This document shows positions 15,780 to 41,887 of a DNA stretch of 64,000 nt, piece after piece. This DNA is from a virus, in IMG/VR virus record IMGVR_UViG_3300023083_000001, positions 194,358 to 258,357 of that record, one strand, 5' to 3'. The first letter of the stretch is position 1. The number at the start of each line of letters is the position of its first letter. The position numbers were made by a program, and so were the translations under genes. A model generated the notes under the pieces. It saw nothing but the letters and a program-made list of their open reading frames with translations. It was not told the DNA's origin and did not search any database.

Positions 15780-15819
15780 CCAGAGAGGATAAAACCTCTC
15801 TGGTCAGTCAGAGGTTTTT
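15780..15819 (+). terminator. terminator stem overlapping the next ribosome-binding site
   Basis: CCAGAGAGG (15780-15788) pairs with CCTCTCTGG (15795-15803). The 3' arm can instead pair with AGAGG at 15810-15814, giving a second stem directly before T5 (15815-15819). That same AGAGG is the ribosome-binding site for ATG 15820, so the two folds are mutually exclusive and could link termination and translation. Confidence 0.65.
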
Positions 15820-16488
15820 ATGTCCGAAGCTGAAGATAACAAAGTAAAAGAACCGATAGACCCAGCATCTGATCATTACCGTGAGATCATCAACACCGGC
15901 CTCGAGCATATGACCGAAGCCGCGAAAGAGATCAATGGTTTTGTTGCACAGCGCAAGCGTGTGGTGCCTGAGGGTTTCTTCATCAACATGTTGCTGCCGA
16001 TCATTCGTGCACACATCCGCCAAGAACATCCCGTGGAATTGGGATACTGGCTGAACGTGGCCGACGGCATGCACAACACCATCGACGTGCATGATGACAA
16101 AGATCCAGCGAAAATCCTCTTCACCGTACCACCTGCTTTCAACAACTTACCTGACCGTGACAAGAAACCAGAAACGGGTAAGCGCTTCGGCACTATCGCG
16201 CAGCTGGTTAACGCTCAGGCGGGCATGCTGGACAATGGCGACACTCGCGGTAGCATGGCTATTGATAACGAACTCAACGCTATCTGTGCTCCCCGTCCCG
16301 AAGATGACGAGAAGACCAAAAACCTGTTACTCCTGGTTGAGATCTACGAGCGATACGAGCTTCCTCTAGAAGAACTCCTCGGATCAGCGGCCGACGAAAT
16401 TCGTCAGCTACTCCGAAAGCGCGACGGCAAAGTTGTACAGGGAACTACAAATGACGGCGATGACGAAGAGCCACCCCTCCTCTACTAA
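15820..16488 (+). CDS. unknown protein of 222 residues
   Basis: ATG 15820 follows AGAGG within a terminator-like stem. Mainly helical and charged, with an acidic C-terminus (DGDDEEPP). No known domain. The last 38 bases overlap the start of the SbcD-like gene, so the two are probably translated together; this hints at a DNA-metabolism context but nothing more. Confidence 0.7.
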   Translation: MSEAEDNKVKEPIDPASDHYREIINTGLEHMTEAAKEINGFVAQRKRVVPEGFFINMLLPIIRAHIRQEHPVELGYWLNVADGMHNTIDVHDDKDPAKILFTVPPAFNNLPDRDKKPETGKRFGTIAQLVNAQAGMLDNGDTRGSMAIDNELNAICAPRPEDDEKTKNLLLLVEIYERYELPLEELLGSAADEIRQLLRKRDGKVVQGTTNDGDDEEPPLLY

Positions 16489-17632
16489 CGCCATCACCAA
16501 AGTAATCCTGGGGGAGTTTCTATTTTCCCCCAGAGTTGCAGGTGAGATCAGGATCTCCAACATCAGTGACGTCCATCTTGGTCATGGACGTGTACCGACG
16601 GCAAAGATCCTTGATTGGTGGGAGCAGGTCTATACCCCAAAGATGCTCGATTGCCTGGACGTCATTATTGTCTCAGGTGATTTGTTTGACCGCCGTCTAC
16701 CCCATGACGGTGATGATGCAAAACTGATTGCCCGCTGGGCAGGTCGTTTCCTAAGACGTCTGGTCAAACACGGTGTAGCCCTCAGGATCCTGGAAGGCAC
16801 ACCAAGCCACGACAACCGTCAGTCCAGATGGTTAGTCGACTACAACGAAATGATGCACCTGGCAGCCGATGTCAAGTTCTACGAGTGCATCACAATCGAT
16901 GAACTGATCCCTGGTGGTCCGTCCGTCCTTTATATACCGGACGAAGTCAACCACGATGCCAACCAGACCTGGATCGAAGTCCAGGAGTACATGCGTGAGC
17001 ATGACTACAAGACCGTCGACTTTGCCGTGATGCACGGTATGTTCACGTTTCAGGAACCGATCAAGAGTATCGCGAGCCACTTGGAAGATCGGTATGAATC
17101 GATTGTGAACCACCGCATCATGATTGGACATCACCACACGCATGTCCAGTCTGGCAAGATTGTCGTCCCAGGATCTACCGAACGTCTAAGACACAATGAG
17201 GAAGAGGATAAAGGACATTACCAGTTCACCTTCTCCAAAGAGCGTGGTTTGTTCGATGAGTATTTTATCATCAACTCCCAAGCTACTGTGTTCACAACGT
17301 TTGATGTCGAAGGCTGGTCGTACAAGAAGGTCCACGATCTGCTCCAGAAACACGATCATCTGCCTAATGGTTCAAACCTGAGGCTTAAGCTTAGTCGTAA
17401 GGACGATGCCTACATCAGCTTTAATAAGTTGAAATCAGATTTCCCTCATTTCAAACTCGAGCACAAAATGGTCGAGCTGGAAGAGCAGGAGAAAGAAGTC
17501 GTAGAACTGATCGACCGCCCGGTCATGACGTCGATCCGTCCTGACACCTTACGTGCATTGCTGGAACCTAAGCTCAGCGGTATATCGGCAGAGATCAGGG
17601 CAGCAGTCGATAAGGCGTTAGAAACCTGTTGA
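16451..17632 (+). CDS. SbcD/Mre11-like metallophosphoesterase (nuclease subunit)
   Basis: 393 residues from ATG 16451 (MTAMTKSH), behind AGGGAAC. Metal-binding motifs occur in the family order: SDVHLGHG (D-x-H), SGDLFDRR (GDxxDR), GTPSHDN (a GNHD variant), VMHG, and GHHHTH. This is the calcineurin-like nuclease plan of SbcD, Mre11 and T4 gp47, which process DNA ends during recombination-dependent replication. The C-terminal third (about 300-393) is a separate charged helical region. The SbcC/gp46 ATPase partner is not visible nearby. GTPSHD replacing GNHD is a mild deviation that keeps the His and Asp. Confidence 0.85.
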   Translation: MTAMTKSHPSSTNAITKVILGEFLFSPRVAGEIRISNISDVHLGHGRVPTAKILDWWEQVYTPKMLDCLDVIIVSGDLFDRRLPHDGDDAKLIARWAGRFLRRLVKHGVALRILEGTPSHDNRQSRWLVDYNEMMHLAADVKFYECITIDELIPGGPSVLYIPDEVNHDANQTWIEVQEYMREHDYKTVDFAVMHGMFTFQEPIKSIASHLEDRYESIVNHRIMIGHHHTHVQSGKIVVPGSTERLRHNEEEDKGHYQFTFSKERGLFDEYFIINSQATVFTTFDVEGWSYKKVHDLLQKHDHLPNGSNLRLKLSRKDDAYISFNKLKSDFPHFKLEHKMVELEEQEKEVVELIDRPVMTSIRPDTLRALLEPKLSGISAEIRAAVDKALETC

Positions 17633-35894: not shown

Positions 35895-36359
35895 ATGTCA
35901 GCATCTCATCAAACTACGCGATTCGGTTCGCGAGACGTAGATCTCAGCGCTCAGTGCGATGAGATTGAAAAGGACACGGTCAAGCTTTGCCGCTCGGTCG
36001 GGCTCGCTATCCGCGCAGCTATCCAACCCATTGAAGAACTACCGCTGTCGTTGTCGCTTCTCGAACAGGCGGGTCGTAAGGCCGACATTCCTAAACTGGG
36101 TCAGCTGGTCCAGTCGATTGCTCGCGATCAAGACAAGTTCATCGCTGAGAAAACGGCCCTCGATGCAAAGTTCGAGTCGCTGAAGAACGACCGCCCTACC
36201 AAGAAAGGTAGTCTGTCTCGTTATTCCAACAGCGTATCCTTTCTGGGTCATGAATACATCGACCTGAACCAACGGATCGCTCAAACCATGGGGATGACGA
36301 TCGGCGATTACTTCGATCTCATCCAACCACTAACCGAACCCGCTGAGGCTGTATCGTGA
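35895..36359 (+). CDS. small helical protein of unknown function
   Basis: 154 residues from ATG 35895. Almost entirely helical and charged, with a coiled-coil-like stretch around residues 75-105 (QDKFIAEKTALDAKFESLK). Its stop overlaps the GTG start of the 604-residue gene (GTGA at 36356-36359), implying coupled synthesis. Possibly a chaperone or virion assembly factor; inference from context only. Confidence 0.75.
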   Translation: MSASHQTTRFGSRDVDLSAQCDEIEKDTVKLCRSVGLAIRAAIQPIEELPLSLSLLEQAGRKADIPKLGQLVQSIARDQDKFIAEKTALDAKFESLKNDRPTKKGSLSRYSNSVSFLGHEYIDLNQRIAQTMGMTIGDYFDLIQPLTEPAEAVS

Positions 36360-38170
36360 CCGATAGCAAAACTCCTGACGACGAAGTATCGAAAGACGAA
36401 CCCGGTGTCCACACCGGTAGCCATCAAGACGATAGCTCTGCACCTGCCGAGACGGTTGTTGATTCGGCAAGCGGTGACGAACCTCTCCTGGCACCGCCGG
36501 TTGATGAGGATGAAGATACGGTCAGTCAGCATCTGGTTGACGATCCTATTCCAGCTCCTGAGCCACAAACAGAACCTGCCGGTCAAGCAGGTGCTGACGA
36601 AGAACCTGAAGCAGCGCCTGACGTTTACGCCGGTATCTACACACCGAACGAGAACGTCACTGAAACGCTGAAAGTGCTCGACGAACTCACCGACGATGAA
36701 CTGCGGGCTTTGGCCAAAAACGGTTCGGTACTTCTTTCCAACATGGAAGAAGAAGAGTTGATCAAGATCGATGCCATGGTCCGTCAGCAAATCGGACGTA
36801 ACCAGAAGCATCGTCGTAAGCTGGTTGACGATGGCGTTCCAGGTGATTGGCAAGCTGTTGAATTCATGCGGGGCGATAAGCCCATCATCGTCTTCATGAC
36901 AGAAGCTGAACGTGAAGCAATGCAGGTGCTCGAGTTTTACAGCCGCTCGATCCGTCACGGTACTGGTCAGGATGTTTTCACCGACGGTAACAAGTGGACC
37001 AACCTGCCGGCGATTGGTGATTCGAAGATTGCCATGGGTCTGGTTGACCACAGCAAGAACAAAGATCCGATCGTTGTGCTGCGTCATAAGCTGGGTCTGT
37101 CGAGTGAACACTCCGTCCCGATGTGGGGCACGGGTCTTCATTTGTCTCTTGAAGGACCAGGGGCTCTTGAGAACCTGATGCTTGACACCAAGCTGCTCCT
37201 CGAGAAGATCGATCAGGGCCGTGGCAGCAGCGGTTATGTCTACAGCGCCTCATCGGTTTACCTGAACCGTGAAGTGGCCTCGTTCGTGCTGAACAAGGTA
37301 CGTTACTCTACGGCTGGTACTGTGGACGTGGAAACGCTCAAGGACCTGTTGCTGCTGACTGACCTGGAACCACTGGCTCTGGGTGCTGCATCGACCATCT
37401 TCCCAGACGGTTACATGTTGCAACGTCCGTGTCTCACCTCCCAGGGTGGTTGTGGTCATGTGATTGAACGCCGTGTGAATCTACGTCGGATGCTCTTTGT
37501 CAGTGATTCCAAGCTGACCAAAGATCAGTTGCAGTTCATGTCCAAGCGTTCGGGTCGTGTTGACATCTCCACCATCAAGACTTATCAGGAGCAGATGCGT
37601 CCTCATATTTCCCGCCTGGTGGCGTTGAAGAACGGTCAAGCAATCCGTCTGCGCGTTCCGACCATTGCAGCCTACGAGCGTATCGCCGGCGCCTGGATGG
37701 ACAAGATGCAGAACAAGGCCAAGGAGCTGGTGCAGTCCAACGCCAATGAACAAGAACGTAACAACTACATGGCTCGGGCTACCAACGTTGCATTGTTGAT
37801 GGCGTACGGTCATTGGGTTGAAGCGTTTGTGGACTTGGGTAACGGTCTTGACGATGATGCAGTTGACATCGTTAGCCGTGCTGGTTCCAAAGATGCAGAA
37901 GTTCAGTACAAGGCGGACATGGCGATTGACAAGTTGCTGGAAGATCTTTCCGGCGACGTTGACTTGGCTACGAAAGTAGTCACTGCGATTGAGCAGTTCA
38001 TCGTCGACATGACCATCGCAACGGTAGCTGTACCTAAGGCAATCTGCCCTAAGTGCGGTAATCCGGTATCGGGTGACGAATCTTCCAAGCATCCACACTT
38101 GGTTAATATTAACCCGATCGAACTTTTTTTTACCCTACTCCGCCACAAAATAATGACTGCCGGCGGATAA
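36356..38170 (+). CDS. virion/baseplate-type protein with C-terminal zinc ribbon (pre-frameshift product)
   Basis: 604 residues from GTG 36356. Residues 1-100 are acidic and disordered, 105-560 folded and helical, and the end has C564-x2-C567, H579, H581, then PIELFF. A CPxCG motif followed by a hydrophobic PxxxFF end resembles the T4 gp26 baseplate-hub family, but the protein is much longer, so that link is tentative. At codons L590-F591-F592 the mRNA contains C-T8-A, a canonical slippery run; a -1 shift there would replace the last 12 residues with 162 new ones from the following frame. Probably structural or assembly related. Confidence 0.7.
   Translation: MTDSKTPDDEVSKDEPGVHTGSHQDDSSAPAETVVDSASGDEPLLAPPVDEDEDTVSQHLVDDPIPAPEPQTEPAGQAGADEEPEAAPDVYAGIYTPNENVTETLKVLDELTDDELRALAKNGSVLLSNMEEEELIKIDAMVRQQIGRNQKHRRKLVDDGVPGDWQAVEFMRGDKPIIVFMTEAEREAMQVLEFYSRSIRHGTGQDVFTDGNKWTNLPAIGDSKIAMGLVDHSKNKDPIVVLRHKLGLSSEHSVPMWGTGLHLSLEGPGALENLMLDTKLLLEKIDQGRGSSGYVYSASSVYLNREVASFVLNKVRYSTAGTVDVETLKDLLLLTDLEPLALGAASTIFPDGYMLQRPCLTSQGGCGHVIERRVNLRRMLFVSDSKLTKDQLQFMSKRSGRVDISTIKTYQEQMRPHISRLVALKNGQAIRLRVPTIAAYERIAGAWMDKMQNKAKELVQSNANEQERNNYMARATNVALLMAYGHWVEAFVDLGNGLDDDAVDIVSRAGSKDAEVQYKADMAIDKLLEDLSGDVDLATKVVTAIEQFIVDMTIATVAVPKAICPKCGNPVSGDESSKHPHLVNINPIELFFTLLRHKIMTAGG
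38125..38131 (+). promoter_or_regulatory. candidate -1 ribosomal frameshift site (T TTT TTT)
   Basis: The run C-TTTTTTTT-A occupies 38123-38132. In the frame of the 604-residue gene the codons are CTT TTT TTT ACC, so T TTT TTT at 38125-38131 has the right phase for a tandem -1 slip of two Phe tRNAs. The -1 frame is open from 38107 to 38619, and the downstream coding sequence has no start with a ribosome-binding site. Confidence 0.7.
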
Positions 38171-38619
38171 GGACCAACGCCAAAGGGGTATTCGAAGATT
38201 TCATTCACCACGTCGGTAACCTGAACTTTGGGGAGGGTAAATCGCCCTTCACAACAGGGACTGAGTTAAACGACTTGGTGATGAATGAAACGATTCCCGA
38301 TGACTGGACCCGTCAACTGGCAATGATGGAAACGTACGATCAGTCCATGGGGATCTTTGACCATGACTCAGCTGAAATGACTGATCCACTTTCTGTCATT
38401 GGGTTCCACCCCGCCGAGGATCCTGTAACAGGAAACAGACTGGAGATCTTGATGCGTGAGTTGATCGCGTGTCGAATTCCAGAGCTGACCAACACGCCTC
38501 TTGCTGAACTCCTCAACTATCCACGTCACTTACTGGATATGTTGCTCAAGGACGGACGTAAGGCGCGTAAGAAGGAAGAGGCGGATATAACCCAGTTGAA
38601 CCTGGACTTGTCCGGGTAG
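38131..38619 (+). CDS. frameshift extension of the zinc-ribbon protein
   Basis: This frame is open from 38107 and becomes coding-looking from about 38170 (NAKGVFEDFIHHVGN). Its first ATG (38281) has no ribosome-binding site. If entered by -1 frameshifting at 38131 it adds 162 residues, giving a 754-residue fusion. The extension is acidic with a basic helical end (DGRKARKKEE). An independent 112-residue protein from 38281 is the alternative. Frameshift pairs of this kind are typical of tail-assembly chaperones in many tailed phages. Confidence 0.65.
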   Translation, partial: YPTPPQNNDCRRIRTNAKGVFEDFIHHVGNLNFGEGKSPFTTGTELNDLVMNETIPDDWTRQLAMMETYDQSMGIFDHDSAEMTDPLSVIGFHPAEDPVTGNRLEILMRELIACRIPELTNTPLAELLNYPRHLLDMLLKDGRKARKKEEADITQLNLDLSG

Positions 38620-38642: not shown

Positions 38643-38672
38643 ATACAGCCCCGGCTCAGGCCGGGGCTGTAT
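38643..38672. terminator. stem-loop between convergent genes
   Basis: ATACAGCCCCGGC (38643-38655) pairs perfectly with GCCGGGGCTGTAT (38660-38672), a 13-bp stem with TCAG loop. It is nearly the same sequence as 31953-31980 but lacks the T-run. It lies between the rightward unit ending 38619 and the leftward gene ending 38678. Confidence 0.75.
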
Positions 38673-40061: not shown

Positions 40062-40484
40062 CTACACGCGCAGCAGGTTTACAGCTTCAAACACTTCAGC
40101 GTTCTGGATCTTCAGTGTTTCGATCTCAGGCATCAGTTCCAGCAGCGTCTGCGAGAACGGTGCGATTTGCAGCAGGTCTGAAGCCTTGGTGTTGAACGCG
40201 ATGTTGTAACGACGCTCGTACAGACGGAAAGCGTATTCACAAGCCCGGTCCACATCGAATGGCAGCGCTTCGTTGATTTCAAACAACGCCGCACGGCAGC
40301 TGTCAGCGTTCTCTTTGAAGTAGCCACGCAGATCGCCTTGGGAGATTGGCGACGACGGCATCGGGACAACCAGCGCGCAAGCCAGTGCGAGTACCACGGT
40401 GACACGTTGACGACGGTTCTCGACCGTAATACCTTCCGGCATAGCGGAGAGGGTCGACACGATATTGATAGCGTTCATTGCCAT
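40062..40484 (-). CDS. small protein with one membrane segment
   Basis: 140 residues. ATG 40484 overlaps the stop of the metalloprotease gene (TAATG) and follows AAAGGA. Residues about 29-45 are hydrophobic (VVLALACALVVPM), a likely membrane helix or signal-like segment after a basic stretch (RRQR). The remainder is acidic and helical. Coupling to the M48-like gene suggests a joint role. Function unknown. Confidence 0.72.
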   Translation of the reverse strand: MAMNAINIVSTLSAMPEGITVENRRQRVTVVLALACALVVPMPSSPISQGDLRGYFKENADSCRAALFEINEALPFDVDRACEYAFRLYERRYNIAFNTKASDLLQIAPFSQTLLELMPEIETLKIQNAEVFEAVNLLRV

Positions 40485-41785
40485 TATCCTTTCAGAGCAG
40501 CGGAGAGTTGATACAAACGATTGTTAGCAAGTTCTTCAGTCAACTCTTGCTGACCGATTTCTTTACCACGTCCAATGACAGCGTCCAGTGAATAACGAGT
40601 GATCTTACCAAACACATCAGACCATTCGTGCTTCTCTTCCAGTAGCTTATCCAGCTCATCGATCTCGGCCAGGATCTGTTTGCGAAACGCATCGTCGAGT
40701 GAGCGATCTTTTAGAACAGTCACCAACTCACGACGTAACGCTGCAATACGCTGAGGAAGTGTGGTGTATCCACTAGACAGTGCAAAGAACGTAAACGAGT
40801 TGGTTGCCATGCCGATAGCGAAGGTAGTAGCGATCCGTTTGATCGTGGCAAGAAGGACTTTAGCTGCACCTTCGGCCACAGTAGCGAATGGCAAGGCGAC
40901 GATGTTGGAAAAGTTCATCATCAGACCAAACCACTTAGGCTCATACCCGGCTTCAGCAAAGATCCCAGCACTGCGTTCTAATTTAGTCAGACCACGTGCT
41001 AAGTCCACACCCATACCCCATCGAGCCGCGAACTGATCAGCTACAGCTTCAGCCATGCGTTGATCGTACCACCGGGTATTGAGAGCACGCTGCATCCGAG
41101 TAACTTGACCTTCAAGCACCATCGCCACTACTTCAGCGCTGGTTACATCCTCACGCAGTGACTTGTCAACTTCAGCCAAACGCAGAGCAGCCTTACCGAC
41201 CCACATGCGTTTCTCAAGGGTTTCCTGATTGTCCATCCGACCCACTACTTCAGCCAGGATGTAGTTGGTGATCAACGTTTGCCCGAGGTATTCGTAGTAG
41301 GTGTAACAGTGACCCAACTCGTGGAAGTAAAAACCTGCCACTTCACCCGCTGTGAAATACCCGTCAAAGAATGACGGCGTGATCAAGAACTCGTTGGTCA
41401 ACTTGCTGAAGAACCCACCCACTTTAGCCATCTTCAAATCAACGTAACCGTCGATGATCTGATTGCCATTCATGTTATCCAAATCAAACTTGGCTAACAG
41501 CTTCTCTGCACGTGGGTTCAGTGGGGACAGTGCATTGAGATTAGGAACCATCGCCGCAACGTGATAAGGGCCACGCAGGAATGCCTTCTTAGTGAAGTAA
41601 GGCTTAAAACGAATACCTGTGGCGTCTAACGTCAGCTGGGCGATCTCGTTCAGATACCTCTCAATGAGGTGCAGTTCACCGTTAGCCGTCATTGCCTGTT
41701 GAAACAGTTTGGTCACGCGTTTCGGGTACTCGGCGTTCGTCTGAAAGGCAATCGCTTCCATCGACTCCTGTAGCGTAAGTGTCAT
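40484..41785 (-). CDS. M48-like zinc metalloprotease with C-terminal membrane region
   Basis: 433 residues from ATG 41785 (MTLTLQESME), chosen because GGAG lies upstream. H155-E-L-G-H159 is the zinc-binding HExxH, and E246-x3-D250 (EAVAD) fits the third ligand motif ExxxD of the M48 family. Residues about 285-335 are hydrophobic and could form one or two membrane helices. The phiKZ-group head-maturation protease is a serine enzyme, so this is something else, possibly acting on host membrane or virion proteins. It heads a leftward operon with a membrane protein and an inner-head protein. Confidence 0.75.
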   Translation of the reverse strand: MTLTLQESMEAIAFQTNAEYPKRVTKLFQQAMTANGELHLIERYLNEIAQLTLDATGIRFKPYFTKKAFLRGPYHVAAMVPNLNALSPLNPRAEKLLAKFDLDNMNGNQIIDGYVDLKMAKVGGFFSKLTNEFLITPSFFDGYFTAGEVAGFYFHELGHCYTYYEYLGQTLITNYILAEVVGRMDNQETLEKRMWVGKAALRLAEVDKSLREDVTSAEVVAMVLEGQVTRMQRALNTRWYDQRMAEAVADQFAARWGMGVDLARGLTKLERSAGIFAEAGYEPKWFGLMMNFSNIVALPFATVAEGAAKVLLATIKRIATTFAIGMATNSFTFFALSSGYTTLPQRIAALRRELVTVLKDRSLDDAFRKQILAEIDELDKLLEEKHEWSDVFGKITRYSLDAVIGRGKEIGQQELTEELANNRLYQLSAALKG

Positions 41786-41887
41786 GATAGTAGCTCCATA
41801 AGCCACGGTGGGAATCATCCCATTTGCAGTACAAATCTAATTGGTAGACATATGCTTTACGGGGAACTCAAATGAAAGAGGCAACTG
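41786..41887. promoter_or_regulatory. divergent promoter region
   Basis: About 100 bases between the leftward protease gene and the rightward polymerase exonuclease gene. GACATATGCTTTACGG (CATATG palindrome) lies near 41850-41865, giving TATG on both strands. GAGGCAAC precedes ATG 41888. Confidence 0.4.

Follow-up and report, generated by a model that had tools for sequence, protein, structure and literature searches.

Organization of the locus

The window is the whole 64-kb stretch of DNA analysed here; it forms the 3′ end of a 258-kb virus record, and its source group is the phiKZ-like jumbo phages. Window features lie on the + strand unless stated otherwise. The gene under study (36356–38170) begins with GTG and encodes a 604-residue protein, which matches phrog_4585 (E 1.6e-73) and is a homologue of phiKZ gp077, PhiPA3 gp074 and 201phi2-1 gp136. 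Its start lies on the stop of the upstream gene (35895–36359) in a GTGA overlap; the upstream gene is the positional homologue of phiKZ gp078 and belongs to the same transcription unit, in an order conserved among GenBank relatives. The unit is closed by a 13-bp hairpin (38643–38672) between convergent genes, likely a terminator, and is very stable: the 71 nt around it have a folding energy of −40.2 kcal/mol (z −6.6).

The neighbours of the gene include the virion RNA polymerase β′ subunit (phrog_2962) and a phiKZ-type DNA polymerase, and the gene order beside the β′ subunit gene is maintained in GenBank relatives. The immediate neighbours yield no match to tail-tube or tape-measure families. 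Elsewhere in the window, 40484–41818 of the minus strand encodes a 444-residue phrog_2767 protein of unknown function, whose HELGH (HExxH) motif makes it a possible metallopeptidase-like protein.

A DNA-level search of GenBank phages found no relatives of the window locus, and protein searches and group alignments were needed to find them. A tblastn search with the 604-residue protein matched 204 phage records, every one at less than 60% identity, including those of phiKZ gp077, PhiPA3 gp074 and 201phi2-1 gp136; an initial scan of viral contigs with the window protein as query returned zero matches.

A slippery heptamer and an open −1 frame in the window

Close to the end of the gene, the heptamer T_TTT_TTT (38125–38131) lies in X_XXY_YYZ phase inside an 8-T run (38124–38131). 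The 0 frame around the run is GAA CTT TTT TTT ACC, so the heptamer is indeed in the phase that the earlier note had assigned to it for a tandem −1 slip. After such a slip, reading would continue as TAC CCT ACT and so on until TAG (38617–38619). The −1 frame extends from 38113 to 38619; the end agrees with the earlier note, while its opening at 38107 has to be moved to 38113 because a TAA at 38110–38112 closes the frame upstream.

The 592 codons up to the end of the site, joined to the 162 codons of the −1 extension (38131–38619), would encode a long product of 754 residues, as previously counted. The earliest start codons in the −1 frame, TTG, GTG and ATG at extension codons 49–51, stand without a Shine-Dalgarno sequence, in line with the remark that the first ATG lacks a ribosome-binding site. 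The short product carries both CPKCG and PIELFF, the motifs noticed before, and its C-terminal stretch (38032–38131; AVPKAICPKCG...HPHLVNINPIELFF) is conserved. The predicted junction peptide is HPHLVNINPIELFFYPTPPQNNDCR in the window and FPHLIPIDMLSTFFYFGGLEVKPDGVVNDLR in phiKZ, with the 0-frame counterparts HPHLVNINPIELFFTLLR and FPHLIPIDMLSTFFTLAASK, respectively.

Conservation of the site and the −1 frame

We read the 3′ end of the gene in 127 distinct loci, comprising the window, 29 GenBank phages and 97 environmental contigs. A TTT-TTN motif is in phase at the homologous place in 122 of the 127 loci (30/30 window and GenBank genomes and 92/97 environmental contigs), and in these 30 genomes and 92 contigs the TTTTTN site is located 27–114 nt upstream of the 0-frame stop. 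The strict heptamer, with T as its first base, is found in 26 of the 30 window and GenBank genomes and at 79 of the 92 environmental sites with the motif; the rest read A_TTT_TTY or G_TTT_TTY, which permits one good and one imperfect re-pairing. The remaining five environmental loci (L091, L093, L108, L114 and L117) have NTT_TTT instead of TTTTTN and no second Phe codon at the site, yet their −1 frame is open, and slipping by a single tRNA-Phe may therefore work there.

Beyond the 0-frame stop, the −1 frame is open in all 127 loci, with a length of about 150–180 codons in every locus except that of Pseudomonas phage RVTF4 (L014, 3215–3735). In RVTF4 the extension is interrupted after 58 codons, and the next annotated ORF seems to continue the homologous region; the break is probably a one-base sequencing error or an indel. 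An in-frame fusion of the two parts is absent from all 127 loci. The T run and open −1 frame, whose conservation in related phages the earlier note had proposed to check, are both there, and we found no relative with separate genes and good ribosome-binding sites, the arrangement that the note had set against its own reading. Taken across these alignments, the arrangement appears as an old and conserved feature of phiKZ-like phages.

The modelled short product resembles T4-like baseplate hub assembly proteins

In the alignments of the short product, F591 is invariant and P584 and F592 are conserved in more than 90% (alignment A6), and the zinc-like motif CPxC is aligned across the family (alignment A1). 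The AlphaFold model of the 604-residue protein is confident, with a pLDDT of 80.9 and a pTM of 0.80, with the first 80 residues disordered. After direct homologues, the Foldseek matches among viral models are to proteins named 'Baseplate hub assembly protein, bacteriophage T4-like', with E 3.9e-5 and 1.2e-4 at a probability of 1.00 and TM-scores by target of 0.51 and 0.60, a comparison of a predicted model against predicted models only. In addition, 3 of 68 family members match phrog_150 (baseplate hub), with E down to 4.4e-4, and the same PHROG contains T4 gp26 and gp51.

T4 gp26 and gp51 are listed as hub assembly chaperones (PMC3004832). They are paralogues (BLASTP 2e-6) with matches to phrog_150 for each; one is short, the other has a longer C-terminus, and their genes lie at 15803–16429 (−) and 16480–17229 (+) of L139. 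The predicted fold of the short product is similar to that of such T4-like hub assembly proteins. The end of the short-product family (...AVP...CPxC...P.L.PLD....FFTL...) has a layout similar to that of T4 gp26 (...AVPIKCPECGKTHAHVIRGLKEFFELL), with a weak profile score: hhalign of the family against gp26 gives E 7e-4 to 1.4e-3, yet a probability of just 18–26%. A PDB fold search with the short-product model gave no matches, Pfam and PDB sequence searches gave no significant match, and no relative with a solved structure emerged from them. A PF12322 search of seven records was also without a match and carries little weight, since its control gave no signal either.

Mass spectrometry picked up gp256, the phage Churi homologue, as early as 15 minutes post-infection, in a study that lists it as non-structural (PMC11849849). 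The record of 201phi2-1 gp136 is without a virion mass-spectrometry note, and the neighbouring gp138 and gp139 carry one. The non-structural listing of Churi gp256 fits a chaperone; its early timing fits less well.

The fold match, the link to phrog_150, the layout of the C-terminus and the T4 gp26/gp51 chaperone pair together point to a T4-like pair of tail assembly chaperones, produced through a lambda-type mechanism, as the best-fitting reading. We consider a ribosomal frameshift combined with a tail-assembly chaperone role to be probable, and hold the role at this strength because the gene is distant from those for the tail tube and the tape measure and because a homologue is already present at 15 minutes. 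The guess of a tail or baseplate assembly factor in the earlier note thus gains moderate support from the fold match, the weak PHROG links and the non-structural Churi homologue, with the gene position and the early detection counting against it.

Alternatively, the frameshift pair could be genuine but act outside tail assembly, with a non-structural function during the early or middle stages of infection, such as in transcription or the phage nucleus. The virion RNA polymerase β′ subunit gene nearby, in a maintained gene order, the homologue made by 15 minutes and the conserved CPxC motif are in keeping with such a role, whereas the fold match to baseplate hub assembly proteins, the PHROG matches that connect the family with the baseplate hub and with tail proteins, and the fact that tail assembly chaperones are typically such short/long frameshift pairs (PMC5009743) argue against it. 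We regard a non-structural role as rather unlikely and favour one in tail assembly.

Selection at the slip site

Site statistics were calculated over 97 non-redundant sites with the motif, with the expectation taken from each gene's own codon use. The codon before the site encodes eleven different amino acids (V, T, I, L, A, S, Y, G, F, N and E), yet T occupies its wobble position in 86 of the 96 cases where it could, against 28.8 expected (z 14.2). For the second Phe codon, TTT is used in 61 of 95 cases (32.8 expected). The first Phe codon is TTT at 97/97 sites, a count that is conditional on how the sites were picked and is therefore given no weight. Furthermore, TTTTTT occurs nowhere else in the gene in the 30 window and GenBank genes. 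The codon choices indicate that selection acts on the slip site at the nucleotide level.

Slippage of RNA polymerase on the T run, instead of the ribosome, would also make a long protein. Runs of 7–9 T at 73 of the 97 sites would suit it, and phage RNA polymerases are unusual; it is less likely, however, because the run is just 5–6 T long at the other 24 sites. In addition, the phase is always that of the −1 heptamer, and the wobble T that completes the heptamer is selected. We judge polymerase slippage to be improbable.

The −1 frame evolves as a protein

Past the 0-frame stop, mismatches at codon positions 1, 2 and 3 number 2115, 1444 and 4584, respectively, over 68 pairs that are not independent, a pattern indicating that the −1 frame is under purifying selection and evolves as a protein. 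The window −1 protein matches records of the phiKZ-like group from its first residue onward, and the extension matches phrog_12109 (E 3.3e-16); one extension matches a tail-protein PHROG. The conserved motifs of the extension are HV...FG, Y...GI, E and EFL.LPR, followed by a long helix, and its AlphaFold model is of fair quality, with a pLDDT of 82.8 and a pTM of 0.64.

GenBank records mostly annotate the second part as a separate downstream gene, and some start codons do lie inside the frame, as would be the case if the extension were an independent gene starting within it. The annotation is inconsistent, however: starts vary, the product is truncated in phiKZ (gp076.4, 80 aa) and nearly missing in SL2, and phiKZ, SL2 and SNUABM_54 have fragments only. 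Homology runs upstream of the annotated starts to the slip site, and at 93 of the 97 sites the first 25 extension codons contain no start preceded by even a 4-nt Shine-Dalgarno match. Moreover, an independent gene offers no reason for selection on the heptamer. With no conserved Shine-Dalgarno starts and with homology reaching the slip site, we treat an independent gene as ruled out and give it very little credence. A sequencing error or pseudogene, with a miscounted T run in a single-frame or broken gene, has a negligible chance. Homopolymers are error-prone and the later break in RVTF4 looks like such an error, but 127 loci, originating from many laboratories and environments, share the out-of-frame arrangement while differing in T-run length and sequence context, which refutes it as a general explanation.

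Proposed mechanism

At the level of sequence, the site, its phase, its conservation, the selection on both frames and the lack of an independent start are established; that the slip takes place on the ribosome, how often it does so and that the products serve tail assembly are inferred. The reading of the earlier note, a programmed −1 frameshift, is strongly supported by the conservation of the site, the selection on the wobble T and the selection on the −1 frame. Programmed −1 frameshifting is very likely, and, judged from sequence alone, a programmed frameshift or an equivalent slip almost certainly produces the long protein; ribosomal −1 slippage by two tRNA-Phe would be the simplest reading.

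In this mechanism, one start of the 36356–38170 gene would give two proteins. The majority of ribosomes would stop at 38170 and release the 604-residue protein, while a minority would slip −1 on T_TTT_TTT, with two tRNA-Phe re-pairing, and add 162 residues to make the 754-residue protein. The shared part would be a probable chaperone of the T4 gp26 kind, acting on the baseplate hub or the tape measure. The extension, helical and with a long C-terminal helix, would probably add a second binding surface, as the T part of lambda gpGT does.

We found no conserved RNA structure downstream of the site, with a mean z of −0.51 over 97 sites versus −0.41 for an in-gene control stretch, and a Shine-Dalgarno-like stimulator is present upstream at just 6 of 97 sites. 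In the window, a possible local hairpin of 6 bp (TCCGCC...GGCGGA, 38139–38167) lies 7 nt after the site, with a z of −1.57 for the 61-nt stretch; it is not a feature of the family. Low-efficiency slipping without stimulators has been described in tailed phages (PMC5009743).

Comparison with known systems

The arrangement resembles phage lambda gpG/gpGT in having a short protein and a longer −1 product with a common N-terminal part and an open −1 extension, apparently without a conserved stimulatory structure (PMC5009743). In contrast to lambda, the shared part is far larger (604 residues in the jumbo phage), the site is of the U_UUU_UUU type, and the gene does not lie between the tail-tube (major tail protein) and tape-measure genes. 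Sequence, Pfam and PDB fold searches returned no match to gpG/gpT or any other known tail assembly chaperone.

T4 uses two separate genes for gp26 and gp51, whereas the jumbo phage would use one gene and a frameshift. Profile comparison of the extension with the C-terminus of T4 gp51 gave no match, and homology between the two is unsupported by this comparison. According to PMC10885494, in a statement citing Vladimirov, Gautam and Davidson 2022, some T4-like phages have a short and a fused long chaperone gene in place of frameshifting.

The closest counterparts are phiKZ gp077 with gp076.4 and PhiPA3 gp074/gp073, which are direct homologues with identical order, phase and slip site. Their GenBank records give separate hypothetical proteins, with gp076.4 as an 80-residue fragment and no frameshift annotated.

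In Synechococcus phage S-8S55 (OQ504983.1, 3132–3293), the region matching a gp51-type C-terminus runs across the boundary between a gene annotated 'baseplate hub assembly chaperone' and one for a hypothetical protein, and cyanophage gp51 has been reported without its first ~200 residues (PMC3037559). Together, these two observations suggest a frameshift pair in S-8S55 also.

A possible history, which we put forward tentatively, is that a single gene of phiKZ-like jumbo phages yields, through −1 frameshifting, the counterparts of T4 gp26 and gp51, and that this would be the older state, later replaced in the T4 lineage by a duplicated short gene alongside a long, fused one.

Implications for phiKZ-like phages

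Short/long frameshift pairs are known already; what is new is the occurrence of one in this phage group, with so large a shared part and with a T4-type fold. In the open-licence literature searched, no frameshift is linked to a gene of the phiKZ gp077 family, and the suggestion in the earlier note that such a chaperone pair had not been described for this group agrees with this search.

If true, the proposed reading would extend short/long frameshift chaperones to a phage group for which we found no earlier report, and would link lambda-type frameshift pairs with the two-gene pair of T4. It would correct the annotation of many genomes, in which the extension is now split, truncated or missing. 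Furthermore, it would account for two conserved, functionally unassigned genes of jumbo phages, both the nucleus-forming ones and their relatives, and would provide a testable handle on phiKZ tail assembly.
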